DNA from: Anaerotignum sp. | GTDB taxonomy: Bacteria > Bacillota > Clostridia > Lachnospirales > Anaerotignaceae | DNA: 15,748 bases | Direction: 5' to 3' | Assembly: GCA_020024395.1 (NCBI GenBank) | Contig: JAHHTV010000013.1 | Location: 1 to 15,748, forward strand | In this document: in pieces, positions 4,609-15,748 of the stretch | How positions within the stretch are numbered: position 1 is the first letter of the stretch | Layout of the letters: every line of letters starts with the position of its first letter | Notes under the pieces: model-generated | The model's input: the letters and a program-made list of their open reading frames with translations, nothing else | Database searches by the model: none | What the model was told of the DNA's origin: nothing | Program-made: the position numbers and the translations under genes

Positions 4609-5669
4609 ATTTGTTTATTTTGCTCCATTTTTTCAATGCCTTCTTGCCATATCTTCTTAAAAGCCGATGGCAAAGCATATTGTTCTGTCATATCTGCCAA
4701 TTCTACCCATACAAAAGGGGTTTCTTCTTTTTGTTCCACCAAAATATAATAACTGTCCATATGCCATTCTATATGTGTAAAAATATGCTTTTGCCCTTTC
4801 ATTTGTGTAATATCCGCTTTTGATATGCCCCATTGTGCCAAAGCCATAGGCAATGCATATTCTTTTTGCACATTCGGTAGTTCCCATAAATTTGCTAAAA
4901 GCCCTTTTGCTTCTCTTTTGTGCAATGCAATTTTTTTGCCATCTGTCAAAAAACAAACCGAAAGATATTCTTTTGTGCGTGGTTTTTTTTCGCTTTTGAC
5001 AGGATATTGTGTTATTGTATTTTTGTGGTATGCCACACAATATACACGCCATGGACAAATCTCACATTTTGGTGTACCATTTGGCACACAAACCGTTGCC
5101 CCCAATTCCATCAATGCTTGGTTCACATCTCCAGCAATTTCTTCTGTCAATTCTGCATTGATTTCTACTTCCCATGCTTTTTTTGTTTGTTGTAATAAAA
5201 TATCTCTGTTATCTGCAAACACACGGGACATCACACGCAACACATTACCATCAACCGCCGCATATGGCAAATCAAAAGCAATCGACGCAACCGCTCCTGC
5301 CGTATAAGAACCAATCCCCTTTAATTGTAACAATGCTTTGTGGTCAGCAGGCATTTTCCCATTATGCTGTTCCATAATTTGTTTTGCTGCTGTCTGCATA
5401 TTCCGCACACGGCTGTAATATCCCAAACCTTCCCACAATTTTAATATCACATCTTCTTTTGCTTCTGCCAAATCTGCAATCGTTGGCAATTCTTGCAAAA
5501 ATCTTGCATAATATGGTTTCACAGCCTCCACACGTGTTTGTTGTAACATAATTTCAGAAACCCAAATATGATATGGATTTTTTGTATTTCTCCAAGGCAA
5601 ATCTCTATGCCCTTTCAAATACCATTGTCGCAACACTTGCAACAACTCATTCAAATCGGCGTTTTGCAT
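4596..5669 (-). CDS. mutY: A/G-specific adenine DNA glycosylase MutY
   Basis: Removes adenine mispaired with 8-oxoguanine, protecting DNA from oxidative G-to-T change. The 357-aa protein has every expected part: LPWR near residue 24, the catalytic Glu39 in SEIMLQQTRVEAV, the helix-hairpin-helix LKGIGSYTAGAVASIAF (116-132), catalytic Asp140 in VDGNVLRV, and four cysteines for a 4Fe-4S cluster at 194, 202, 205 and 211. The first two cysteines are 7 rather than 6 residues apart; I believe this variant is common in clostridia. The C-terminal NUDIX-like domain that reads 8-oxoguanine is present, including the HIFTHIEW segment. The ATG at 5669 follows AAAGGAGG by about 5 bases. It appears to be a single-gene transcript with its own promoter (5797-5826) and a strong hairpin in its leader. 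Confidence 0.95.
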   Translation of the reverse strand: MQNADLNELLQVLRQWYLKGHRDLPWRNTKNPYHIWVSEIMLQQTRVEAVKPYYARFLQELPTIADLAEAKEDVILKLWEGLGYYSRVRNMQTAAKQIMEQHNGKMPADHKALLQLKGIGSYTAGAVASIAFDLPYAAVDGNVLRVMSRVFADNRDILLQQTKKAWEVEINAELTEEIAGDVNQALMELGATVCVPNGTPKCEICPWRVYCVAYHKNTITQYPVKSEKKPRTKEYLSVCFLTDGKKIALHKREAKGLLANLWELPNVQKEYALPMALAQWGISKADITQMKGQKHIFTHIEWHMDSYYILVEQKEETPFVWVELADMTEQYALPSAFKKIWQEGIEKMEQNKQMTIL

Positions 5670-5691
5670 ATATCCTCCTTTTATGACACAA

Positions 5692-5713
5692 AGCCGACGG
5701 ATTTCCGTCGGCT
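5692..5713. other. Perfect hairpin in the mutY leader
   Basis: AGCCGACGG (5692-5700) and CCGTCGGCT (5705-5713) form a perfect 9-bp GC-rich stem with a 4-base loop. It sits between the mutY promoter and its ribosome binding site, roughly 20 bases before the latter. In the mutY direction only three T follow, so it is a poor terminator by standard rules. It could be an attenuator, an mRNA-stabilising structure or a remnant of a terminator. Confidence 0.6.
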
Positions 5714-5796
5714 ATTATCATTCAATTTTTCTCAAATGAAATATTTTCAAATATACTTGGTATTATCCTCTATTTGTTTTTTGAATATACGTTGCC

Positions 5797-5826
5797 AGTA
5801 TACTATATATTGTTTTTTTCTGTCAA
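5797..5826 (-). promoter_or_regulatory. Sigma-A promoter for mutY
   Basis: On the minus strand a perfect TTGACA (5826-5821) and TATACT (5802-5797) lie 18 bases apart. This would give a leader of about 120 bases containing the hairpin at 5692-5713. The 348 bases between mutY and the D-serine gene hold this promoter, the opposing promoter at 5882-5910, the inverted repeat at 5871-5890 and no gene that I can support. Confidence 0.7.
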
Positions 5827-5870
5827 TAAAAACAATAAATATAGTATTTTACAATATTCCCTATTTTCTT

Positions 5871-5890
5871 TTTATACAATCTTGTATAAA
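5871..5890. promoter_or_regulatory. Operator-like inverted repeat before the D-serine genes
   Basis: TTTATACAATCTTGTATAAA is a perfect inverted repeat of two 9-base arms around a central TC. Its right half contains the -35 hexamer of the rightward promoter, the placement expected for a repressor site. The arms resemble TTGTATACAA-like sites of GntR-type regulators, but no regulator gene is adjacent in the window. Confidence 0.6.
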
Positions 5891-5910
5891 AAGCCATCAT
5901 TTGTTAGAAT
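5882..5910 (+). promoter_or_regulatory. Promoter of the dsdA-eamA unit
   Basis: TTGTAT (5882-5887) and TAGAAT (5905-5910) are separated by 17 bases. The -10 is close to consensus and the -35 is weak (three matches of six), as is common for regulated promoters. The leader to the ATG at 6018 would be about 100 bases. I see no riboswitch in it. Confidence 0.55.
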
Positions 5911-6017
5911 AAAAAACAAGATAAACAAATGTTGTATCAGAAAACATAATATTGTAACCATCATACATATGCATAAACTGCTTTTACATAATCAACCATC
6001 AAAAGGAGGTACTATTT

Positions 6018-7352
6018 ATGGACAAAGAAACATTATGGCAAACTGTGCAAAACAAATCTTTATTGCAAGAAGTTGCAAAAGGCAAAGAAGTCATATGGCT
6101 CAATGACAACATTTCTTCTGCATCAAAAGCACTTTCTGATATTCCATTCACCATGGCAGATATTGATGATGCTGAGGCAAGATTAGCACGTTTTGCCCCA
6201 TTCATACAAATCATATTTCCTGAAACCACATCACAAAATGGTTTGATTGAATCCCCCTTGACAGAAATTGCATCTATGCAAAAGCATTTGGAAACAAAAT
6301 ATCATACAAAAATTTCTGGGCGGTTGTTTCTCAAACAAGATAGCCATCTTGCAATATCTGGCTCTATCAAAGCAAGGGGCGGTATTTATGAGGTATTGAA
6401 ACACGCCGAAGATTTGGCACTTGCACACGGCAAAATCAAACAAACCGATGATTACACAAAATTTGCCTCTCCTGCATTTCGTTCCTTTTTCAGCCAATTC
6501 AAAATACAAGTTGGCTCAACAGGCAATCTTGGTTTGAGCATTGGCATTATGAGTGCCGCTTTGGGATTTCATGTCATTGTGCATATGTCTGCCGATGCCA
6601 AACAATGGAAAAAAGACCTCTTGCGTCAAAGAGGGGCAGAAGTCATAGAATATGATGACGATTATAGCAAAGCTGTGGAAGTTGGCAGAAAAAATTCTGA
6701 TGCAGACCCTACAAGTTATTTTGTAGATGACGAAAATTCCCTCACATTGTTTTTGGGATACGCTGTTGCTGCAAAACGTTTGCAAAAACAATTGCAATCA
6801 CAAAACATCACCATAGATGCAAAACACCCATTATTTGTGTATATTCCTTGTGGTGTGGGTGGCGCACCTGGCGGCGTTGCGTTTGGCTTAAAACAGCTTT
6901 TTGGTGATGCAGTCCATGTTTTCTTCATCGAACCCACACAAGCCCCTTGTATGTTGGTTGGTATGGCTTCCGGTTTGCAAAACAAAGTTTGTGTACAAGA
7001 TTTCGGCTTAACTGGTCAAACCCATGCAGATGGTCTTGCCGTTGGGCGTGCTTCTGGTTTTGTGGGTGGTGTGATGAAACATCTACTTTCTGGCATTTTA
7101 TCATTAGAAGATTATCATATCTATGATTATATGCGAGATATTGTCCATACTGAAAATATTTTCTTAGAACCCTCTGCCTGTGCTTCTTTCTGGGGCGTTT
7201 CAAAACTCAATACCCCTGAAATGCAGCATTATATACAAAAAGCAGGCTTGCAAAATGATATGCAAAATGCAATACACATTCCTTGGGCAACCGGTGGCAA
7301 TCTGGTACCAGCAGAAATTCGAGAAGCATATATGCACACCTACTTAAAATAA
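6018..7352 (+). CDS. dsdA: D-serine ammonia-lyase (D-serine dehydratase)
   Basis: PLP enzyme that converts D-serine to pyruvate and ammonia, used for detoxification or growth. The 444-aa protein follows E. coli DsdA, as I recall it, almost throughout. The PLP lysine is Lys118 in ISGSIKARGGIYEVL, the same number as in E. coli. STGNLGLSIGIMSA (167-180), HMSADAKQWKK (189-199), the VDDENS segment (236-241), the glycine-rich phosphate loop CGVGGAPGG (278-286), and DGLAVGRASGFVG all match. These features distinguish it from diaminopropionate ammonia-lyase and from threonine dehydratase. The start has AAGGAGG 8 bases upstream. No LysR-type DsdC regulator is next to it; the palindrome at 5871-5890 may bind a different regulator. 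The exporter gene downstream is probably co-transcribed. Confidence 0.95.
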   Translation: MDKETLWQTVQNKSLLQEVAKGKEVIWLNDNISSASKALSDIPFTMADIDDAEARLARFAPFIQIIFPETTSQNGLIESPLTEIASMQKHLETKYHTKISGRLFLKQDSHLAISGSIKARGGIYEVLKHAEDLALAHGKIKQTDDYTKFASPAFRSFFSQFKIQVGSTGNLGLSIGIMSAALGFHVIVHMSADAKQWKKDLLRQRGAEVIEYDDDYSKAVEVGRKNSDADPTSYFVDDENSLTLFLGYAVAAKRLQKQLQSQNITIDAKHPLFVYIPCGVGGAPGGVAFGLKQLFGDAVHVFFIEPTQAPCMLVGMASGLQNKVCVQDFGLTGQTHADGLAVGRASGFVGGVMKHLLSGILSLEDYHIYDYMRDIVHTENIFLEPSACASFWGVSKLNTPEMQHYIQKAGLQNDMQNAIHIPWATGGNLVPAEIREAYMHTYLK

Positions 7353-7369
7353 TATTTTGAACAGCTTTT

Positions 7370-7394
7370 CCACAAGAGTATTTTTCTCTTGTGG
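7370..7394 (+). other. Intergenic hairpin between dsdA and the exporter gene
   Basis: CCACAAGAG (7370-7378) and CTCTTGTGG (7386-7394) form a perfect 9-bp stem with a 7-base loop. It is followed by GATTTGCTTTG rather than a T run, so it is not a classical terminator. It could set the ratio of the two genes by mRNA processing or partial termination. The exporter's ribosome binding site begins 13 bases later. Confidence 0.5.
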
Positions 7395-7419
7395 GATTTG
7401 CTTTGTAAAGGAGTTTTTT

Positions 7420-8286
7420 ATGGAAAAAAAGAAAACTGTATTTTTATTTAGTTTTTTCACTGTATTTTTATGGGCATCTGCATTTCCTTTGACAAAAATT
7501 GTACATGAACAATTTACTTCTAATACCATCGGATTTTTACGTTGCACATTTGCATCATTTTTTCTTATCATTATCGGAAAATGCAATCATATTCGTTTGC
7601 CACACAAAAGAGATATTCCTTTGTTTTTTCTTTCTGGTTGTATGGGCTTTACATTATATATGATATTTTTCAATACTGGCATATTGACATTGACATCTGC
7701 AACATCTAGTATTGTCATCGCCATTACCCCCATATTAACTGCCATCATCGCAACAAAATTATATGATGAACATATCAAAAAAATTGGTTGGATTTCTATA
7801 TGTACTGCATTTATTGGTGTATTGATACTTTTGTTATGGGATGGTGTACTTTCTGTCAATATTGGTATGTTTTGGACATTACTTGCTGCCATTGTATTTT
7901 GTATATATAATATCATCAATCGTCATCTTTCTGCAAAAGGTTATCAAGCATTGGAAACGGTTACATATAGTATGGTTTGTGGTGCCATATTGCTCAGTTT
8001 TTGTTCTGTACAGAGCATACAACTGTTGTTTGCCTCTGATGTCAAACATATTGCTGCTTTGGTTTATCTTGCAGCATTTCCCAGCGCACTTGCATATTTT
8101 TCATGGGGAAAAGCCATGTCATTTGCCCAAAAAACAAGCGAAGTCACAAACTTTATGTTTGTCACTCCGCTGCTTTCCACAATACTTGGTTTTGTCATAC
8201 TACACGAAGTCCCAAATATGGGTACATTTTTGGGCGGTGCCATCATTATTTGCAGTATTATTGTGTTTAACTTAAAAGGAAAATAA
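7420..8286 (+). CDS. EamA/DMT family membrane transporter
   Basis: A 288-aa inner-membrane protein with about ten hydrophobic helices arranged as two EamA repeats (about residues 8-135 and 148-286). Family signatures include FLWASAFPLTK in the first helix, TSATSSIVIAITPILTAIIA near the end of repeat one, LAAFPSALAYFSWGKA and FVTPLLSTILGFVILHE in repeat two. Members export amino acids or metabolites such as threonine, cysteine products or purines. The pairing with D-serine ammonia-lyase hints at an amino acid or related compound, but the substrate cannot be read from sequence. The ATG at 7420 has AAAGGAG 6 bases upstream; an in-frame ATG at 7357 lacks a good site and would add residues unlike the family. 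It ends just before the convergent OYE gene. Confidence 0.85.
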   Translation: MEKKKTVFLFSFFTVFLWASAFPLTKIVHEQFTSNTIGFLRCTFASFFLIIIGKCNHIRLPHKRDIPLFFLSGCMGFTLYMIFFNTGILTLTSATSSIVIAITPILTAIIATKLYDEHIKKIGWISICTAFIGVLILLLWDGVLSVNIGMFWTLLAAIVFCIYNIINRHLSAKGYQALETVTYSMVCGAILLSFCSVQSIQLLFASDVKHIAALVYLAAFPSALAYFSWGKAMSFAQKTSEVTNFMFVTPLLSTILGFVILHEVPNMGTFLGGAIIICSIIVFNLKGK

Positions 8287-8292
8287 TACTAC

Positions 8293-9405
8293 TTATCCCT
8301 TGTCTGCCATGGCAAGGGCTTTTTCAAATGTTGTACAATAGTTTCCGTGGTCTGTTCTACATTTTCCACATCTTACACATTTTACTTTTTGTTGCATATC
8401 TTGTTTCCATCTTGTTATCAAATGTGGCTCTGTAAAAAATGGTCTGCTAAGTCCAATGCCTGTCAAACATTCTTTTTCTATCATATCATTGCAATGCTCT
8501 ATTGTTTGAAAACCACCAGTCACAAATATTGCCATATTTCTTTCTTTTGCCAATGTTGCTGCAAATTCTGAAAAATAGCCATCTTTTTGTATGGTATACC
8601 CCTCTAGCATTTTGCCTGCCAATGTACGACATTCTATATAATTGTTTCCTGTAATTTCCACAGCGTCCACACCCCATTGTTCTAACCATGCACAAAGTAT
8701 GCGACATTCTGCAAATGAAAATCCATTTTCCATAAAATCACTGCAAGGCACTTTTACAAATATGGGGAAATCATCTCCCACCACATTTCTGACTGCTTCA
8801 TAACATTCTTTCAAAAACCTTGCTCTATTTTCCAAACTACCGCCATATTTGTCATTTCTACAATTATAATAAGGACTTAGAAATTGGTTCAACAAATAAA
8901 AATGTGCTGCATGCAATTCTATGGCATCAAAACCAGCATCTTTGACACGTTTTGCTGCTTTTGCGTGTGCTTGTACCACATAAGCAATATCTTTTTCTGT
9001 CATGGAAACACCTTTTGTCCCTGTTGCTTTTTCTGGAATGTCAGAAGGTGCAAATATGATACGGTTTTGTGTTTGATGTGTGGTTTTTGTGCCACCATAT
9101 GCAATTTGCATCATAATTTTACTGCCATGTTTATGTATCAAGCTCGTAAATGCTTGATATTCTTTTACAAAACTATCTTCATATATCCCAAGCATATGAG
9201 GGTTTGCGCATTCTTCTTTTGTAATTCTTGTCATACCTGTACAAATCAAACCGACCTCATTTTTTGCCAATGTTTCATACACTTCTTGCAAATGTGGTGT
9301 CATATGCCCATCTTCTGTTGCTTTTCTTTCCCATGTGGCACTTCTCAAAAATCGGTTGTTGCAGTGCAATGACTTGACTGAAAACGGTGTAAAACCAATT
9401 TCCAT
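8293..9405 (-). CDS. Single-domain OYE-family NADH:flavin oxidoreductase with C-terminal cysteine cluster
   Basis: A 370-aa FMN-binding TIM-barrel reductase of the old yellow enzyme family, likely reducing an activated C=C bond with NAD(P)H. The active-site segment reads ELHAAHFYLLNQFLSP, with the His165/His168 pair and proton-donor Tyr170, followed by the conserved YGGSLENRARF. Near the C-terminus CVRCGKC plus a later Cys (343, 346, 349, 357) may bind an Fe-S cluster or zinc. Unlike 2,4-dienoyl-CoA reductase or trimethylamine dehydrogenase, it lacks the downstream FAD/NAD domain, so electrons would come directly from NAD(P)H or another partner. The ATG at 9405 sits 6 bases after GGAGG; the ATG at 9411 would directly abut it. 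It is the last gene of the six-gene operon, 13 bases after the second CoA-transferase. It may reduce an unsaturated intermediate, but this is inferred. Confidence 0.85.
   Translation of the reverse strand: MEIGFTPFSVKSLHCNNRFLRSATWERKATEDGHMTPHLQEVYETLAKNEVGLICTGMTRITKEECANPHMLGIYEDSFVKEYQAFTSLIHKHGSKIMMQIAYGGTKTTHQTQNRIIFAPSDIPEKATGTKGVSMTEKDIAYVVQAHAKAAKRVKDAGFDAIELHAAHFYLLNQFLSPYYNCRNDKYGGSLENRARFLKECYEAVRNVVGDDFPIFVKVPCSDFMENGFSFAECRILCAWLEQWGVDAVEITGNNYIECRTLAGKMLEGYTIQKDGYFSEFAATLAKERNMAIFVTGGFQTIEHCNDMIEKECLTGIGLSRPFFTEPHLITRWKQDMQQKVKCVRCGKCRTDHGNYCTTFEKALAMADKG
8297..8324 (+). terminator. Terminator of the dsdA-eamA unit
   Basis: CCCTTG (8297-8302) and CAAGGG (8313-8318) pair around a 10-base loop, followed by C and five T (8320-8324). 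It begins 10 bases after the exporter stop codon. It lies inside the 3' end of the convergent OYE coding region, so that end of the gene serves both purposes. Confidence 0.6.
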
Positions 9406-9418
9406 GTTCATCCTCCTT

Positions 9419-10573
9419 TTATGTGTTTAGCAAAAATCCAAATTCTTCACAAATTTGTTTTGTGTGTTGTCCCAATAAAGGGGCACCTTTTTGGATTGTT
9501 GCTGGTGTCTTGCTCAATTTCATTGGATTGTTTACTGCATGATAAATACCAATACCATCATCTTGCAATATCACCAACATTTCTCTGTCTTTGATTTGCT
9601 GATGTTCCATAATTTCTGGAATTGTCAAAACAGGTGCATTTGGAATTTTTGCATTTGTAAATATTTCTTGTAATTCTGCTTTTGTATGTTTTGCAAAATA
9701 AGGTAATACTTCTGCTGTAAATGCTTCATAATTTTTGCAACGCAATGTATTATCTGTAAATCTTTCATCTTCCAATAATGCTACCATATCAATGGCACGG
9801 CAGAAAGGTTCCCAACCTGCATCGCTTGCCAAACCTGCGGAAAAATAACCATCTTTGCAAGGATATACGTCATAAGGCACCAATGTCTCTGCATCATTGT
9901 TGCCACATCTTGTTGTTTCTACATTTTTGATAGATGAGAACAATACAGGGCTTTCCATAATGCTGAACAATGTATCCAGCATAGAAACATCTACTTTTTG
10001 CCCCTCGCCTGTCTGTATTTTATGATAATATGCCATCACGATACCATTTGCCAACATCAACGCAGACAAACTATCGCCCACCGCAGGGCCTACACGCACA
10101 GGTGCTTCATTTGGAAATCCTGTCATTTCCATAATACCACACATTGCTTGTATCACATTTTCATAAGCGGGTTTGTCCCAAAATGTGCCTGTTCTGCCGA
10201 AACCAGAAACACTTGCATATATCAATCCTGTATTTTCTTTTTTCAATTCGTCATAACCCAGACCCATTTTTTCCATTGTGCCACCTTTGAAATTTTCCAC
10301 CACAATATCTGCTTTTGCAATCAATTTTTTCACAAGTGCAATCCCTTGTTCCGTTTTCAAATCAACTTCCAAACTTTCTTTATTGCGGTTCATCATTGCA
10401 AAATAGCCACTTTGCCCATTTTTCAAAGGTTCCCAAGCTCTTGCCATATCGCCTGTGTCTTTTCTTTCAATTTTGATAACCCTTGCCCCAAAATCTGCTA
10501 ATTGCATGGTACAAAAATCACCACTATATCCTTGTGAAAAATCCACAACCAGTACATCTTTTAATATAGACAT
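9419..10573 (-). CDS. Class III (CaiB/BaiF-type) CoA-transferase, second copy
   Basis: A 384-aa enzyme moving CoA between carboxylic acids through a covalent aspartyl intermediate. The N-terminal VVDFSQGYSGDF segment, FGARVIKIERK, VVENFKGGTMEKMGLGY and SGFGRTG are family hallmarks. Asp167 in VGPAVGDSLSA is the catalytic aspartate. The C-terminal LGQHTKQI motif completes the fold. The start follows GGGAGGG by about 7 bases, with only 2 bases separating it from the stop of the first CoA-transferase, so translation is probably coupled. It is clearly homologous to its neighbour but differs widely in the substrate-facing middle, suggesting a different acyl donor or acceptor rather than a redundant copy. 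The specific acids are unknown; betaine-like acids are inferred from the operon. Confidence 0.92.
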   Translation of the reverse strand: MSILKDVLVVDFSQGYSGDFCTMQLADFGARVIKIERKDTGDMARAWEPLKNGQSGYFAMMNRNKESLEVDLKTEQGIALVKKLIAKADIVVENFKGGTMEKMGLGYDELKKENTGLIYASVSGFGRTGTFWDKPAYENVIQAMCGIMEMTGFPNEAPVRVGPAVGDSLSALMLANGIVMAYYHKIQTGEGQKVDVSMLDTLFSIMESPVLFSSIKNVETTRCGNNDAETLVPYDVYPCKDGYFSAGLASDAGWEPFCRAIDMVALLEDERFTDNTLRCKNYEAFTAEVLPYFAKHTKAELQEIFTNAKIPNAPVLTIPEIMEHQQIKDREMLVILQDDGIGIYHAVNNPMKLSKTPATIQKGAPLLGQHTKQICEEFGFLLNT

Positions 10574-10575
10574 AT

Positions 10576-11763
10576 TTATGCCCTCCCTTCTATGATACCA
10601 TCATCCAACAACTGCCTTATTTCTTCTTTGCTGTAACCAATCTGTTCCAAATAATATTTTGTATGTTCTCCCAAATCAGGTGCAGATTGTGTAAAACCAC
10701 CAGGGGTTTTATCCATTTTGATAACAGTTGCAGGCATTTGTATGTTCCCCAGTTGTGCATCTTCCAATGTTGCTAACATTTCTCTTTCCAATATAGGGGT
10801 GCATTGCATTGCTTCTTTTGGTGTGCGTACTGCCCCTACAGAAATACCAGCATCACTTAACAATGTTTCCACTTCCATTTTTGTTTTGTTTTGCAATATT
10901 TCTTCCAAATCTTTTTTCAATTCTTTTTCATTTTCCCATCTGGTTGTAGCATTTGTATATTTTTCCAACAGATGTTTTGCATCTAACACATCACACAAGC
11001 TCTCCCATTGTTTTTCTGTTGACACGCTAATCACAACATAGCCATCTTTTGCTTTGTATGCATCATAAGGCGCAAAAAATGGTACACCATTGCCGCTTCT
11101 TTCTGGTACGCTGCCTGTCATATCGTATGTCACTTGTGCTGTTTCCAACACAGAGAACAAAGCATCCAATATTGCAATATCAATGGTTTGTCCTTCACCT
11201 GTTTTTTTGCGATGCACCAATGCCAAATTGATGGCAAGTGCCAAATACTGCCCACTGATATGGTCACCCAAAGCAGGGCCAGCTTTCACAGGAGAACCAT
11301 CTGCAAAACCTGTTCTGTCCATCATACCACTCATTGCTTGTAATTGTAAATCCAAACCAATGGCATTTTTCATAGAACCATATTGTCCAAAGCCATTCAA
11401 TGATGCATAAATGATAGAAGGGTTGATTTCTTTTATGGTTTCATAAGATAATCCCATACGTTCCATACTGCCATACTTAAAGTTCTCGCAAACAACATCT
11501 GCATCTTTTATGAGTTTGAACAATATTTCTTTTCCTTCTGCTGTGCTGGCATTCAAAGAAATGCTTTTTTTTCCTCTGTTCAAATAAACATAATATCCAC
11601 TTTGTTCATTTTGTATTGGCTCCCAATATCTTGCCAAATCACCTACGCCTTTTCTTTCAATTTTGATGACTTCCGCCCCAAAATCGGATAACAGCATTGT
11701 GGCTGCACTGCCTGCGTGTGCTTGTGTAAAGTCAATGATTTTGACACCTTCCAAAGGTTTCAT
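10576..11763 (-). CDS. Class III (CaiB/BaiF-type) CoA-transferase, first copy
   Basis: A 395-aa CoA-transferase with IIDFTQAHAGSAA at the N-terminus, FGAEVIKIERKG, VCENFKYGSMERMGL, NGFGQYG, and catalytic Asp167 in AGPALGDHISG, the same position as in the neighbouring copy. The LGEHTKYYL motif near the end is also typical. Family members include CaiB (carnitine/crotonobetaine), formyl-CoA transferase and bile-acid CoA-transferases. With a BCCT transporter and a BKACE upstream, a role in charging a betaine acid or in reclaiming CoA from the cleavage product is likely but not proven. The ATG at 11763 follows AGGAGG by about 8 bases. The gene begins just after a long terminator-like hairpin (11789-11832), so it and the two genes behind it may be transcribed at a lower level than the first three. 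Confidence 0.92.
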   Translation of the reverse strand: MKPLEGVKIIDFTQAHAGSAATMLLSDFGAEVIKIERKGVGDLARYWEPIQNEQSGYYVYLNRGKKSISLNASTAEGKEILFKLIKDADVVCENFKYGSMERMGLSYETIKEINPSIIYASLNGFGQYGSMKNAIGLDLQLQAMSGMMDRTGFADGSPVKAGPALGDHISGQYLALAINLALVHRKKTGEGQTIDIAILDALFSVLETAQVTYDMTGSVPERSGNGVPFFAPYDAYKAKDGYVVISVSTEKQWESLCDVLDAKHLLEKYTNATTRWENEKELKKDLEEILQNKTKMEVETLLSDAGISVGAVRTPKEAMQCTPILEREMLATLEDAQLGNIQMPATVIKMDKTPGGFTQSAPDLGEHTKYYLEQIGYSKEEIRQLLDDGIIEGRA

Positions 11764-11788
11764 CTATATCTCCTCCTAAAATAAATGG

Positions 11789-11832
11789 AAATAAAACTGT
11801 CTTTTCCGATTTTGGAAACGACAGTTTTATTT
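11789..11832 (-). terminator. Terminator-like hairpin inside the operon
   Basis: Two perfectly complementary 13-base arms, AAATAAAACTGTC (11789-11801) and GACAGTTTTATTT (11820-11832), enclose a second stem TTTCC/GGAAA (11803-11807, 11814-11818) with one mismatch between them and a 6-base loop. On the minus strand the stem core ACTGTC/GACAGT runs into TTTTATTT. This is a good intrinsic-terminator shape in either direction. It lies between the dehydrogenase and the first CoA-transferase, all transcribed the same way, so it probably causes partial termination or stabilises an RNA end. Confidence 0.7.
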
Positions 11833-11844
11833 GATTTTTACATA

Positions 11845-12876
11845 TTATAATGTAGGAATTTCAAATGCGTCTAAGTTGTTCCAAGCATCTTCCAATTTGG
11901 TTTCACCATTTTGTATTTTTGTAACCAACTCCACAATTTTTTCATTAAATGGTGTGGGAACAGAAACTTTTTTACCATCTTGGACAAATTTTCCGTTGAT
12001 TTGATTTATTTCACAAATTCTGCCTTTTGACAAATCTTGCAACATACTTGCTTTTTGTTGTCTAAAAGGTGTATAAACTTCTGTCCAATATGCAATCACT
12101 TTATCTAATTCTTCTTTTGTTTCAAAGCACACTCTGTCAGGTGTAGGGCAAAGACCAAACAATTCCACAGGTTTTACGCCCAATGCTTGTATCACTTTTG
12201 CTGCTTCCATACCAGTATAAGCAATACATTCCATTGCCTTTCTGTTATCCAAAATATCACCTACCAAACAACCCAATGCTGTCGCCAAACCACTAAAGCA
12301 AGAATTATCTGTCAATTTTGTATAGCGTACACCTCTCAAATTTTCTGTGAGTTGGCAATGACCCAATGCATCTAAAAACATTTTTTGAATTTCCAATGTT
12401 TTTTCTGTGATTTTGCCATCAGGACGACCAAAGGAAATCCCCAATGTTTCTTTACCAGATGCCAATTTGCTTACACCAGGTTCCACAAAAGTACCACTAA
12501 ATTCCATACCACCGCCAACAACTCTATCCATACCTACGATTTCTGCGGCAATATCTTCAGGAATACCGTTTTGCAATGTCATGATGATTGTTTCATCATG
12601 CATGAAAGGCACTGCTTTTTCCAAAGCTTCTTTCATTGTAGTTTGTTTTGTCAAAGAAATTACCAAATCATATTTCCCTGTCAAACCATCATCATATACC
12701 GCTTTCACAGGTATGATTTCATCTACAAAACCCACAATATGTGCACCTTTTTCATTCAATGCGTCCACATGTGCTTTATAGTTATCCACCAATTCCACAT
12801 CATAACCAGCTTTTGTCAGATAAGCACCAATAATGGTACCCATTGCACCTGCACCCAATAATGCAATTCTCATCAT
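11845..12876 (-). CDS. Ketopantoate reductase-family (ApbA/PanE-like) NAD(P)-dependent dehydrogenase
   Basis: A 343-aa two-domain oxidoreductase. The N-terminal Rossmann fold starts RIALLGAGAMGT (dinucleotide-binding GxGxxG) and includes the family LQNG motif near residue 103. The C-terminal helical domain has the catalytic lysine in RYTKLTDNS (about Lys187) and the substrate-site pattern KASMLQDLSKGRICEINQINGK (about 275-296, with the conserved Glu near 289). A housekeeping role in pantothenate synthesis is possible. Its place between the BCCT and CoA-transferase genes argues instead that it oxidises or reduces a hydroxy/keto acid of this pathway, for example a carnitine-like 3-hydroxy acid. 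Three consecutive ATG codons occur; AAAGGG lies 4, 7 or 10 bases before them, and the middle one (12876) is best spaced. It is longer than typical PanE (about 300 aa). Confidence 0.85.
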   Translation of the reverse strand: MMRIALLGAGAMGTIIGAYLTKAGYDVELVDNYKAHVDALNEKGAHIVGFVDEIIPVKAVYDDGLTGKYDLVISLTKQTTMKEALEKAVPFMHDETIIMTLQNGIPEDIAAEIVGMDRVVGGGMEFSGTFVEPGVSKLASGKETLGISFGRPDGKITEKTLEIQKMFLDALGHCQLTENLRGVRYTKLTDNSCFSGLATALGCLVGDILDNRKAMECIAYTGMEAAKVIQALGVKPVELFGLCPTPDRVCFETKEELDKVIAYWTEVYTPFRQQKASMLQDLSKGRICEINQINGKFVQDGKKVSVPTPFNEKIVELVTKIQNGETKLEDAWNNLDAFEIPTL

Positions 12877-12894
12877 CATTACACCCTTTCTATA

Positions 12895-14475
12895 TTATTT
12901 ATCATGATATACGCCTGTTTCCATATCATATTTGCCATCTGCAACGTCATTTTTCACCATTTTGAAGAAAGAAACCACCAATGCAATACAAATCAGTGTA
13001 CAAGGCAAAGCAAAAATAATCACAATTGTCTGTATCGCTGTCAGCGGGCTACCTGCCAAAATGAAACCAACAGGCATACATACCAAGAATATCGCCCACA
13101 ACAGTCTCAACCATCTTTTAGATTCACCATTTTTATCCAATTTTGTCTGAGATACAGATGCCAAAACACCAGATGTCGCATCATATGTAGTTGCTGCAAA
13201 CAATACAATAACTACCAGTAAAACTGCCATAATCACTTTAGACAAAGGCAGCTGACCCAACAATGTAATAATGGTTGCAGGTGCACCTTCTGTATTCAAT
13301 AATGTAATCAAATCCAATGTACCTTCCATATGTGTTTTGATACCAAAACTGCTCAAAATCATGAATACTGCAAAACAACCCAAAGAACCAAAACCAACTG
13401 TACCCAAAATCATTTGTTTCAATGTTCTACCTTTTGAAATTTTTGCAAAGAACAAACCATAGAAAGGTGCATATACTGTCGAATAAGCCCACAGATATAC
13501 AGACCATGCTTCCGGATACCCATTGGATACATTACCAGGATCCATCCAGCTATTCATTGTAATAAAGTTTTGCAATATAATCCCCATACTTGTTGTTGCA
13601 TTATCCAATGTAAATACAATGCCAGCACCAAATATCATAATAAATACCAAAACACAAATTGCTGTAATGACATTACCATCTGAAATACGTTTCATACCTT
13701 TTTCGATACCCATGTAGGAAGTAATACCGAAAATAATTGCAATACCAAACAATACGCCTACTTTCAAAACATTGCTATCTGGAATACCAGTCAATGTGGA
13801 AATCAAAGCAGTCAACAAAGGTGTACTCATACCAAATGCAGTTGCTGCACCACCAACCAAACCAAATATAAAGCCAATATCAATAATTCTACCTAATATA
13901 CCATCTACTTTATCGCCAAATGCACCACGGCAAGCTTCACTAATACGGAATACAGAGCATTTTTTGATATGAATGATGTATCCACAAGCACAACCACCAA
14001 TAATATAAATTGTCCAAGCCATAAAGCCCCAGTGATAAGGCCCTAATGCTGCTGCCATTTCTGCTGCTTCCCATGTACCAGGTTCAATATGTAAAGGTGT
14101 TTGTTGGAAATAATACATCCATTCTACAAACCCCCAGTAAATTACAGTACTACCAATACCGCCACAGAACAGCATCGCTGCCCAAGAAAACAACTTATAA
14201 TCTGGTTTTGTATCTGGAGAACCTAGTTTGATTTTCCCATATTTACTAAATATAATGTAAATACAAAATCCTAATGTAAAGAATGCAAACCAAATATACC
14301 AGTTACCAAAATTTTGTGTAATCACACCATTGATGGCATTTACAACTTCCATACCCTTTTCAGGATTTGCAATAATTGGTATACTCACCAATGCCAATAT
14401 AATGACTGCACCCAAAAACAAAGGTATATCCAACTTGCCTTCTGACTGATCCAAATTTTTCTTATCTTTATTCAT
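12895..14475 (-). CDS. BCCT family transporter (betaine/carnitine/choline type)
   Basis: A 526-aa inner-membrane transporter with about twelve helices and the family's paired motifs. Helix 4 has HWGFMAWTIY (Trp149, Trp154, Tyr157), matching the substrate aromatic box of CaiT and BetP. Helix 8 reads YLWAYSTVYAPFYG followed by FFAKISKGRT. As I recall CaiT, the equivalent stretch is WAWWVIYAIQM, so here one Trp becomes Tyr331 and the next Ser332, with Phe338 and Tyr339 where CaiT has Gln and Met. It therefore probably moves a quaternary or sulfonium compound, but the substrate may not be carnitine itself. It may work as an antiporter exchanging substrate for product; this is inferred. The ATG at 14475 follows AAGGAGG by 5 bases. 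It is the second operon gene, 37 bases after the BKACE gene. Confidence 0.93.
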   Translation of the reverse strand: MNKDKKNLDQSEGKLDIPLFLGAVIILALVSIPIIANPEKGMEVVNAINGVITQNFGNWYIWFAFFTLGFCIYIIFSKYGKIKLGSPDTKPDYKLFSWAAMLFCGGIGSTVIYWGFVEWMYYFQQTPLHIEPGTWEAAEMAAALGPYHWGFMAWTIYIIGGCACGYIIHIKKCSVFRISEACRGAFGDKVDGILGRIIDIGFIFGLVGGAATAFGMSTPLLTALISTLTGIPDSNVLKVGVLFGIAIIFGITSYMGIEKGMKRISDGNVITAICVLVFIMIFGAGIVFTLDNATTSMGIILQNFITMNSWMDPGNVSNGYPEAWSVYLWAYSTVYAPFYGLFFAKISKGRTLKQMILGTVGFGSLGCFAVFMILSSFGIKTHMEGTLDLITLLNTEGAPATIITLLGQLPLSKVIMAVLLVVIVLFAATTYDATSGVLASVSQTKLDKNGESKRWLRLLWAIFLVCMPVGFILAGSPLTAIQTIVIIFALPCTLICIALVVSFFKMVKNDVADGKYDMETGVYHDK

Positions 14476-14512
14476 AGTGCCCTCCTTCTTTTGCCATTTT
14501 CATAACATTTTA

Positions 14513-15385
14513 TTATTTTACAATGCCCAGTTTTTTTCTTGCTTCGGCAGGTGTCAACACATTCGCACCCAAGTCACGAATCATTCTCACTGCTTTTTCT
14601 ACTAACTGTTCATTTGTTGCAAATTCACCTTTTGCAATATAAATGTTATCTTCCAAACCAACCCTTGCATTGCCACCAGCAATGATTGCCTGTGCCATCA
14701 TGGGGTATTGTTCTCTACCAATGCTAAAAGCACCCCAGTTTGCACCTTGTGGTAAAGCATTTCTCATTGCAACCAAATTATCCACAGTTGCTTCTGCACC
14801 ATAAGGAATGCCCATACAAAGTTGGAATATAGTTTTTTCGGAGAGCAAACCTTTACCGATTAACTCTTTTGCTTGCCAAATATGTCCCAATTCAAATGCT
14901 TCGATTTCTGCCAAAACGCCAGCAGCTGTAATTCTTCTTGCAGACTCTTGCAACATTGCATAAGTTGCCAAATATGTTGTCGCTTTATAATTGAAAGAAC
15001 CACAATCCAATGTACAAATTTCAGGTTTGATTTTTTCAATATGTTTCACACGTTCCGCAGGAGATACCATATCACTGCCTGGTCCAAACACAGTAGGGTC
15101 ATCTGGATGTTCCACATAATCGCCACCCATACCAGTTGTCAAATTGATGATAACATCTGTACCGCTTTGGCGAATGATGTCTACTGTTTCTTCGTACAAT
15201 TCCAATCTTCTGCTTGGTGTACCATCTGCTTCTCTTACGTGAATGTGTGCCACTGCTGCACCTGCTTTTGCCGCACCAATTGCTGCTTCTGCAATTTGTT
15301 GTGGTGTAGAAGGTACATTTGGGTGTTTCAAATGGCTATCGCCAGATCCTGTTACTGCACAAGTCAAAATTACATCTCTGTTCAT
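14513..15385 (-). CDS. Beta-keto acid cleavage enzyme (BKACE, DUF849), 3-dehydrocarnitine cleavage-like
   Basis: A 290-aa zinc TIM-barrel enzyme that joins a beta-keto acid to acetyl-CoA and splits out acetoacetate plus a new acyl-CoA. Zinc ligands His47 and His49 are in AHIHVR. Glu245, with neighbouring Asp246 and Arg241, is in RVGLEDN, matching the Glu230/Asp231/Arg226 trio of the 3-keto-5-aminohexanoate enzyme. NLTTGMGGD (81-89), GSDMV (103-107), ICTLDCGSFNY (123-133) and FQLCMGIPYGA (187-197) resemble, from memory, proteins annotated as 3-dehydrocarnitine cleavage enzymes. Acting on 3-dehydrocarnitine it would give betainyl-CoA and acetoacetate. The ATG at 15385 follows GGAGG by 8 bases; a GTG at 15400 would lie at that site. 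It is the first gene of the operon, directly after the promoter at 15440-15468, which suits the committed step. Confidence 0.93.
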   Translation of the reverse strand: MNRDVILTCAVTGSGDSHLKHPNVPSTPQQIAEAAIGAAKAGAAVAHIHVREADGTPSRRLELYEETVDIIRQSGTDVIINLTTGMGGDYVEHPDDPTVFGPGSDMVSPAERVKHIEKIKPEICTLDCGSFNYKATTYLATYAMLQESARRITAAGVLAEIEAFELGHIWQAKELIGKGLLSEKTIFQLCMGIPYGAEATVDNLVAMRNALPQGANWGAFSIGREQYPMMAQAIIAGGNARVGLEDNIYIAKGEFATNEQLVEKAVRMIRDLGANVLTPAEARKKLGIVK

Positions 15386-15439
15386 TTTTGTTTCCTCCAC
15401 TCTTAAAAGTTCTTAAAAAGTTAAATCGTATTTGCTTTA

Positions 15440-15468
15440 AGCATAAAAGGACATCATTTGACTGACAA
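15440..15468 (-). promoter_or_regulatory. Probable promoter of the six-gene catabolic operon
   Basis: On the minus strand TTGTCA (15468-15463) and TATGCT (15445-15440) are 17 bases apart, giving a leader of about 50 bases before the BKACE start. A second TTGTCAG lies 29 bases further upstream (15497-15491), a direct repeat that could be an activator or repressor contact site. No regulator gene for the operon is in the window. Confidence 0.5.
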
Positions 15469-15534
15469 TACGGCACTTTTTCTACATTATCTGACAAAAA
15501 CCACAGTCACTTTCTAAAATCACAAATAGTATAA

Positions 15535-15567
15535 AAAAAGATAGTTTTTGATATTTTCTAACTTTTT
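15535..15567 (-). other. Weak AT-rich hairpin upstream of the operon
   Basis: AAAAAGATAG (15535-15544) and CTAACTTTTT (15558-15567) pair with one mismatch around a 13-base loop. On the minus strand the structure ends in a run of seven T. In such AT-rich DNA this may be chance. The stretch 15469-15748 otherwise contains no supportable gene. Confidence 0.3.
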
Positions 15568-15605
15568 GGGTTTATTTCATAATCATTTTTTGTTCCATTT
15601 TTTGT

Positions 15606-15659
15606 AAAAAAAAATATTGCACAATTCATAATACTGTTTTTCTTCTAATTGTGCTATAT
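15606..15659 (-). terminator. Probable terminator of a gene lying right of the window
   Basis: GCACAATT (15619-15626) and AATTGTGC (15647-15654) are perfectly complementary, and a further four pairs (ATAT/ATAT) form beyond one mismatch. The loop is 20 bases. On the minus strand the stem is followed by AATA and nine T (15614-15606), as in an intrinsic terminator. The large loop and low GC make it weak. It would isolate the operon from transcription coming from the right. Confidence 0.45.
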
Positions 15660-15748
15660 AAAATTTGTTACATAGTATGTTTTTAGATACCTACTTTCAT
15701 TTTGTATATATTATATAAAAAAAGTGTCGTATTGCCATCATTTTTTGT

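Follow-up and report, generated by a model that had tools for sequence, protein, structure and literature searches.

Which compound is broken down, and by which reactions, through a compact cluster of six genes in an anaerobe of the genus Anaerotignum? The cluster lies on one strand of contig JAHHTV010000013.1 (assembly GCA_020024395.1), whose 15,748 nucleotides were analysed as a whole and are called the window below. In the order of reading it encodes a beta-keto acid cleavage enzyme (BKACE), a betaine/choline/carnitine transporter (BCCT), a dehydrogenase of the ketopantoate reductase family (DH), two class III CoA-transferase subunits and an old yellow enzyme (OYE) flavoprotein. An initial annotation had described these genes as an operon of six families; Pfam agrees with each family named, and the reading frames are all intact. 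We consider it somewhat probable that the operon core imports carnitine, oxidizes it, cleaves the product to betainyl-CoA by BKACE and recovers CoA by a paired transferase. The observed evidence consists of the gene families, their order, their conserved co-location and their phylogeny; such comparison supports a tie of DH to BKACE, and of BKACE to carnitine.

The tie between BKACE and carnitine comes from a tree of 54 BKACE sequences and from plasmid gene neighbourhoods. The window protein, assigned to the BKACE family by its match to PF05853, forms one clade with six BKACEs of other anaerobes (7 rows, support 100/100), and this clade groups with 11 BKACEs linked to carnitine dehydrogenases (18 rows, 95/94). 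A twelfth linked BKACE (L139) stands just outside and joins at 95/88 (19 rows), while four plasmid BKACEs of 42–48% identity fall outside this 19-row branch. A BKACE of 65% identity is encoded by Anaeromicrobium sediminis. The window BKACE matches 619 records of the plasmid collection, from which 18 neighbourhoods were chosen and examined. All 12 whose BKACE is 49.0–53.1% identical to that of the window carry a dehydrogenase of known type within the stretch: in eight, a gene bears the name carnitine 3-dehydrogenase or L-carnitine dehydrogenase (L081–L086, L146 and L148), and in four there is a "3-hydroxyacyl-CoA dehydrogenase NAD-binding domain" gene (L138, L139, L149 and, at the stretch edge, L147). 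No such dehydrogenase occurs in the gene tables, which are incomplete, of the other six (L140–L145; 34–48% identity). Twenty-four alignment columns are common to the window and carnitine-linked groups and mostly missing from distant BKACEs; among these columns, M86, D89 and C128 are absent in all four members of the 42–48% group, and H168 is also present in three of the four. H47, H49 and E245, which we take to be zinc ligands by analogy with Kce, are invariant in 23 rows. Kce of lysine fermentation was itself rejected as an assignment, with 247.8 bits against the 382 required by the NCBIfam equivalog NF052387. Because of the carnitine-dehydrogenase neighbours and the operon described in Pseudomonas aeruginosa, 3-dehydrocarnitine would be the substrate on which the window BKACE clade acts.

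DH scores 154.4 bits with the ketopantoate reductase family model TIGR00745 (subfamily cut-off 141.35), and the solved chains that match it carry the names 2-dehydropantoate 2-reductase or ketopantoate reductase. The biosynthetic enzyme PanE was rejected, every narrower 2-dehydropantoate 2-reductase model listed scoring below its cut-off. Lys188, Asn192 and Glu290, the presumed counterparts of the PanE catalytic residues, occur without exception in 38 of 38 DH proteins, as does Asp32, located where the second beta strand ends. At this position E. coli PanE has, we assume, an Arg that binds the phosphate of NADPH, and the Asp points to NAD as the probable cofactor of DH. A carnitine 3-dehydrogenase of the 3-hydroxyacyl-CoA dehydrogenase type was also rejected for the window protein, which consists of ApbA and ApbA_C domains and reaches 20.8 bits with 3HCDH_N, below the cut-off of 22. 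When the plasmid carnitine dehydrogenase L081:8482-9936 was compared with eight relative genomes, matches were found in seven, at no more than 35% identity, as for general relatives. This suggests that DH most likely replaces the 3-hydroxyacyl-CoA-dehydrogenase-type enzyme, and we infer that it is an NAD-dependent carnitine 3-dehydrogenase. The DHs beside the window BKACE clade form one clade with those of loci L006 and L007 (9 rows, SH-aLRT 100). At L006 (Vibrio sinensis, 7459-11044), genes for a thiolase, AtoD and AtoA (AtoA by eye) precede a DH of this clade, and a BCCT lies 3 kb away; no close BKACE is encoded in the genome, the best match being 27% over a part. CoA activation followed by thiolysis could split the same 3-keto acid here, in a BKACE-free version of the route.

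The tie between DH and BKACE was drawn from a search with a profile of 38 DH proteins against one genome per species (84,980 species). This gave 161 stretches matching the pattern, 110 of which encode a relative, and all counts on DH loci refer to the best 80 of these 110. In 35 of the 80 loci, and in six of the seven of the highest DH identity bin, DH has a BKACE on its own strand no more than 4 kb away; in 27 of the 35 the distance is within 200 bp; in the 638 kb of the same 80 loci, no BKACE gene stands more than 5 kb from DH. A natural DH-BKACE fusion protein of 500 aa (P0120) also exists, and by eye its BKACE half resembles another BKACE clade. Among the best 120 DH and best 120 BKACE matches, 16 longest contigs of exactly equal size are in common, where jittering gives about one, and therefore DH and BKACE probably occur together on additional metagenomic contigs.

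All five core genes, for BKACE, DH, BCCT and two CoA-transferases (CoAT1 and CoAT2), occur together in 3/80 DH loci, each from a metagenome-assembled genome (MAG). The orders are BKACE-BCCT-DH-CoAT1-CoAT2 in L001 (Flavonifractor MAG, genome G001), CoAT1-CoAT2-AtoD-AtoA-BKACE-DH-BCCT in L002 (Bacillota MAG) and CoAT1-CoAT2-BKACE-DH-BCCT in L008 (Spirochaetales MAG). The window and these three loci show the two modules in two different orders and yet together, which argues for a functional link even if the transcripts differ. The expected recurrence of the set thus extends to its five-gene core, and stops short of OYE: none of the 80 loci has OYE beside the core, the sole OYE match there being 28% identical and 9 kb from DH (L037), and the L002 stretch stops 0.3 kb past the last core gene, so that an OYE farther on would be missed. 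The variant occurs in genomes of Bacillota, Spirochaetota and Thermodesulfobacteriota, the CoA-transferase pair being absent from the Desulfobacterales loci. At the Desulfobacula locus L003 an ADP-forming CoA-ligase-like gene follows BKACE-DH (NCBIfam, below cut-offs); a second one (L005) has the same order, with the ADP-forming ligase recognized by eye. Both have an MttB-family methyltransferase gene on the other strand; their genomes contain 19 and 28 MttB matches, and the MAGs of L001, L002 and L008 none. In the family of G001, 20 of 400 genomes have a DH match, near 80% in G001 alone, the centre of the search, and at most 43% in the others; in a sample of its class, the BKACE clade was found in one of 391 genomes, G001 itself. 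None of 58 genomes in the family of the nearest MutY relative matched, in a search without a positive control, and no relative was found in viral contigs.

There are further DH-BKACE associations. G001 has 12 BKACE matches and, at L078 (4472-11041), another cluster, which contains three BKACEs and two DH genes. DH-BKACE pairs of other BKACE clades occur in Bacilli and Paracoccus (L012–L036, L150 and L151), in the loci examined beside SSS-like transporters (L018 and L032; L014 by eye; L150 as annotated) or GntP (L151), and these pairs would represent unfamiliar beta-hydroxy acid pathways.

The class III CoA-TRANSFERASES were compared as pairs from the window, L001, L002, L008 and a further locus, L175. 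Subunit 1 forms a clade of five (99/97) and subunit 2 another (93/90), and both share the same internal grouping, the window with L001 and L175 against L002 with L008. The two subunits thus appear to form a co-inherited pair. The presumed nucleophile, which we locate by the GD motif as the counterpart of Asp169 of formyl-CoA transferase, is Asp167 of subunit 1 and is Asp in all five loci; the corresponding site of subunit 2 is Asp in three of five and Glu in L001 and L002. Matching trees, with Asp kept in all subunits 1 and in three subunits 2, fit a putative hetero-oligomer. The two genes had first been described as CaiB-type transferases, a label that was dropped: the curated L-carnitine CoA-transferase model PRK03525 gives 189 and 150.6 bits against 413, and what is found instead is a co-inherited pair recalling BbuB/BbuC.

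Taken together, these data are compatible with the following scheme. BCCT would import carnitine, and DH would oxidize its 3-hydroxyl group with NAD to give 3-dehydrocarnitine and NADH. From 3-dehydrocarnitine and acetyl-CoA, BKACE would then produce betainyl-CoA and acetoacetate. The hetero-oligomeric CoA-transferase would move CoA from betainyl-CoA to acetate or acetoacetate, freeing glycine betaine and keeping the thioester; a BbuB/BbuC-like pair running in reverse on betainyl-CoA would free betaine and regenerate the acetyl-CoA for BKACE. AtoDA inside L002 suggests that acetoacetate is further activated, and acetoacetyl-CoA would be split by a thiolase elsewhere in the cell. The net reaction would be carnitine + NAD + CoA to glycine betaine + acetyl-CoA + NADH. 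The substrate, the direction, the cofactor, the CoA acceptor and the fates of betaine and NADH are all predictions of this scheme. Its sequence of oxidation, cleavage with acetyl-CoA and CoA recovery had been outlined in the initial annotation and is supported by the BKACE tree, the carnitine-dehydrogenase neighbours and the gene sets in other anaerobes; CoA recovery without ATP, also proposed there, agrees with a window that has no ligase or thioesterase. The stated lack of CaiA-, CaiC-, CaiD- and thioesterase-type genes likewise holds among the 13 window genes that were recognized among open reading frames (ORFs) of at least 100 aa and scanned with Pfam. Betaine reductase was rejected as a sink: PF07355 is full length in G002 only and partial in G003, G004 and G008, its matches adjoining glycine-reductase-like genes (by eye).

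OYE had been given the part of an electron sink or side entry. With OYE in none of the 80 loci, it was rejected as a part of the core, and the electron-sink idea is left without comparative support. The family is widespread and about 360 residues long, with a C-terminal CxxCxxCx7C motif of iron-sulfur-like cysteines (C345, C348, C351 and C359) invariant in all 21 aligned sequences. The nearest kin are four matches of 68–89%, the rest of the 120 matches listed being at most 54% identical, and the OYE list shares one equal-sized longest contig each with the DH and BKACE lists, where 0.8 and 0.7 are expected by chance. Nothing found ties OYE to the core; it is probably accessory, with a putative role in the pathway. 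It is very unlikely that the operon is a self-contained carnitine fermentation, with DH representing a new carnitine dehydrogenase class and OYE balancing the redox state by a new reaction on a betaine, whether the reduction of free crotonobetaine or a reductive cleavage of betainyl-CoA that yields trimethylamine and acetyl-CoA.

Several observations weigh against the carnitine route. No activity was found for any member, and the window has no thiolase or AtoDA gene. Among the DH loci, 45 of 80 are without a BKACE within 4 kb, many of them in Paenibacillus and Bacillus with a DH identity near 40%, and the DH of L007, near a contig end, has no BKACE in the stretch covered. The DH family also adjoins other BKACE clades with other transporters; it serves several of them, and therefore the presence of DH does not by itself identify the substrate. 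BKACEs 95% (P0241; 35 contigs, longest 169,000 bases), 78% (P0252; 238 contigs, longest 329,673) and 77% (P0253; Anaerotignum sp., longest contig 375,414) identical to that of the window have contigs without a size-matched DH among the 120 DH matches listed; there, cluster P0001, the closest for DH, comprises 2 contigs, the longest of 30,771. As it stands, this speaks against an obligatory DH-BKACE pairing. The window BCCT is 31–35% identical to the BCCTs of L001, L002 and L008, which are themselves 50–64% alike, and by this measure is not orthologous to them. Its nearest solved chain is DddT, presumably a transporter of dimethylsulfoniopropionate (DMSP), at 3.2e-121, the best L-carnitine/gamma-butyrobetaine antiporter chain following at 1.2e-55.

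A further adverse point is a hairpin between DH and CoA-transferase 1, where the gap measures 81 bp. It heads the list of six inverted repeats; its arms of 19 nt are 95% complementary, its minimum free energy is -21.7 kcal/mol against -8.67 ± 2.53 in shuffles (z -5.15; none of 200 shuffles as good), and its 3′ flank is U-rich. It resembles a terminator, leaky or bidirectional, or else an attenuator, and a single transcript across all six genes is doubtful because of it. Gene order and tight spacing had been advanced as proof of one catabolic unit. The gaps are indeed short (37, 15, 81, 2 and 7 bp from BKACE to OYE) and the co-location of five genes is conserved, but the hairpin intervenes and OYE is not in the conserved set; the catabolic unit therefore rests on conserved co-location and not on spacing.

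Some of these observations can be accommodated by other readings. It is unlikely, though in keeping with the likeness of the window BCCT to DddT, that the same enzyme logic serves a sulfonium or another charged 3-hydroxy acid, e.g., gonyol (5-dimethylsulfonio-3-hydroxypentanoate), which would yield DMSP-CoA and acetoacetate. The use of the DH family by several BKACE clades would fit such a substrate, as would the presence among the relatives of Desulfobacula, which we take to be marine. However, the window BKACE clade groups and shares residues with the BKACEs linked to carnitine dehydrogenases, and an MttB-family gene near BKACE-DH in L003 and L005 fits an N-methylated product. A division into two neighbouring units is also improbable. 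BKACE, BCCT and DH would then end at the hairpin, and the pair and OYE would have a separate role, e.g., with an aliphatic or aromatic acid. The U-rich hairpin, a promoter-like match (10/12) at 11873-11844, the absence of OYE from other core loci and the related pair of L175, which stands without BKACE-DH, are in line with this division, but four of the five pair loci (the window, L001, L002 and L008, not L175) have the pair together with BKACE, DH and BCCT.

A tentative possibility, and a serious one, is that the pair belongs to a branch of the bbu/gbu or cai kind and activates crotonobetaine or gamma-butyrobetaine. The operon would then connect the oxidative BKACE branch with a reductive one, the remaining enzymes of which are encoded elsewhere, and OYE or an acyl-CoA dehydrogenase would consume the NADH. 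BbuB and BbuC, likewise two class III CoA-transferases, work only together according to the available part of that report (PMC8364193). The pair closest to that of the window (59% and 57%) is in L175, a second locus of the L002 genome, and the L175 stretch examined contains neither BKACE nor DH, so that a role with gamma-butyrobetaine or crotonobetaine stays in contention. In L175 (3281-13833) the pair is accompanied by a BCCT, EtfBA, a 3-hydroxybutyryl-CoA dehydrogenase, a thiolase and the start of an acyl-CoA dehydrogenase gene; the best model for a sigma-54 activator there is PrdR, below its cut-off. L008 has an acyl-CoA dehydrogenase gene behind BCCT and, directly before the pair, a 4-hydroxybutyryl-CoA-dehydratase/vinylacetyl-CoA-isomerase-like gene (5207-6673; 6vjr 1.4e-80, 1u8v 5.3e-80), whose product could eliminate trimethylamine from gamma-butyrobetainyl-CoA, the job of BbuA in Emergencia timonensis. 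Against this branch, the 13 window genes include no acyl-CoA dehydrogenase, hydratase or trimethylamine-lyase-type gene, and inspection by eye of the L001 gene starts shows none of these three either; a ligase of the cai/bbu kind is likewise absent from the 13 genes. Cleavage of 3-dehydrocarnitine to betainyl-CoA, with CoA recovered by the pair, is the reading that we retain.

Table 1. Operon genes and adjoining elements in the window.
Feature	Position	Strand	Evidence
Leader upstream of BKACE	15386-15748	minus	promoter-like matches only; window ends at 15748
BKACE	14513-15385	minus	PF05853, 317 bits (gathering 24.8)
BCCT transporter, quaternary ammonium (or sulfonium) compound	12895-14475	minus	PF02028, 437.7 bits
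DH, ketopantoate-reductase-family dehydrogenase	11845-12879	minus	ApbA/ApbA_C, PF02558/PF08546, 98.4/83.5 bits
Hairpin, terminator- or attenuator-like	11789-11832	minus	19-nt arms, U-rich 3′ flank; DH/CoA-transferase 1 gap
Class III CoA-transferase subunit 1	10576-11763	minus	CoA_transf_3, PF02515, 402 bits
Class III CoA-transferase subunit 2	9419-10573	minus	CoA_transf_3, PF02515, 392.4 bits
OYE flavoprotein	8293-9411 (start perhaps 9405)	minus	Oxidored_FMN, PF00724, 203.8 bits

All six genes start with ATG near a purine-rich, ribosome-binding-like stretch (Table 1). For OYE this stretch abuts the ATG at 9411, and the start of the nearest relative matches the second ATG at 9405, which may be the actual start. 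The span first given for the operon (8293..15468) holds at its 8293 end; its other end reaches into the leader, and BKACE is best placed from the ATG at 15385, 15400 being the GTG of the program-made ORF list. Over 8200-15748 there are 43 promoter-like matches against 29.2 ± 5.1 in shuffles, which is weak evidence. In the BCCT, the spacing of W114, W119 and Y122 is presumably that of the aromatic box of BetP, and W114 and W119 are invariant in the five BCCTs compared; an assignment as CaiT was rejected (NCBIfam PRK03356, 341.2 against 541 bits). The remaining window genes encode a dihydrouridine synthase, a CLC channel, a phosphatidylglycerol-lysyltransferase-like protein, a GNAT protein, a MutY-like glycosylase, a D-serine ammonia-lyase (661.8 bits, above the NCBIfam cut-off) and an EamA transporter. 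The last two (6018-8286) are on the plus strand and convergent with the operon, the EamA gene ending 6 bp from OYE. EamA was rejected as a shared partner, being only 21% identical to the EamA of L001 and 26% to that of L004. Rfam and tRNA scans of the window found no Rfam family and no tRNA.

The carnitine of the gut is mostly discussed as a source of trimethylamine. The gene set described here provides a testable anaerobic version of the conversion of carnitine to betaine, beyond that of Citrobacter amalonaticus CJ25, in which a member of the ketopantoate reductase family is the candidate carnitine dehydrogenase and the thioester of betainyl-CoA may be conserved by a paired class III CoA-transferase. 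Should this hold, screens of metagenomes could look for a sink that turns carnitine directly into glycine betaine, and new names could be given to proteins labelled "2-dehydropantoate 2-reductase" and "3-keto-5-aminohexanoate cleavage protein". The route had been announced as possibly undescribed. The dehydrogenase family and the transferase pair are new elements, and the whole is a variant and not new chemistry because the carnitine-to-betaine route is known and an anaerobic BKACE-type route has been proposed for CJ25, as far as the available text of that report goes (PMC12482172). In the searchable part of the open-licence PMC literature, no link was found between a ketopantoate-reductase-family enzyme and carnitine or BKACE, the synonym "2-dehydropantoate 2-reductase" lying outside the search; ketopantoate reductase and carnitine are mentioned jointly there only on an unrelated subject, methyltransferase domains.

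Among the enzymes of known function, PanE/ApbA shares with DH the family model and the residues Lys188, Asn192 and Glu290, and differs by Asp32, where we take PanE to have Arg, and by the linkage of DH to BKACE. In the carnitine route of P. aeruginosa we assume a thioesterase acting on betainyl-CoA, a feature of the aerobic operon, whereas none is among the 13 window genes scanned. The cai operon (CaiTABCDE) has transporter and transferase families in common with the window, but the curated CaiB and CaiT models score below their cut-offs and CaiA, CaiC and CaiD are missing from the 13 window genes. Other carnitine modules, with a monooxygenase or with CaiA/CaiB, are listed in the available part of a further report (PMC6514802).

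In E. timonensis, BbuB and BbuC, two class III CoA-transferases 30% identical to each other, act only together on gamma-butyrobetaine with acetyl-CoA, and carnitinyl-CoA was not detected with them in the part of the report available (PMC8364193). The bbu/gbu cluster and the window have two class III CoA-transferases and a BCCT-type transporter in common at the family level only. The requirement for both subunits there and the matching subunit trees here are a likeness by family and description. A BbuA-type acyl-CoA dehydrogenase-like trimethylamine lyase, a ferredoxin and a thioesterase are described for the cluster and are absent among the 13 window genes; conversely, the six bbu genes given in the available text include neither a BKACE nor a DH (PMC8364193).

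The closest likeness in proposed chemistry is to the carnitine operon caiX-cdhCAB-hocS of P. aeruginosa (PMC5806209, available part) and to the plasmid operons, whose BKACEs are 49–53% identical to, and grouped with, the window clade. In the available text on this pathway, carnitine is converted through 3-dehydrocarnitine and betainyl-CoA to glycine betaine (PMC12482172). The dehydrogenase is of the 3-hydroxyacyl-CoA dehydrogenase type there and of the ketopantoate reductase family here; import is by an ABC system there and by a BCCT in the anaerobe genomes here. CoA is said to be recovered by DhcAB in P. aeruginosa (PMC12482172); the class III pair would take this part here and, in Desulfobacula, possibly the CoA-ligase-like gene. 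For C. amalonaticus CJ25, an anaerobic route from carnitine to glycine betaine has been proposed, with a BKACE-type KCE that is more abundant on carnitine (PMC12482172). FadJ and FadI are proposed there for oxidation and cleavage, KCE is 24% identical to CdhC, and no ketopantoate-reductase-family enzyme appears in the main text, where "dehydropantoate" occurs 0 times (PMC12482172). The window and CJ25 nevertheless have three traits in common, namely anaerobiosis, glycine betaine as the proposed product and a BKACE-type protein.

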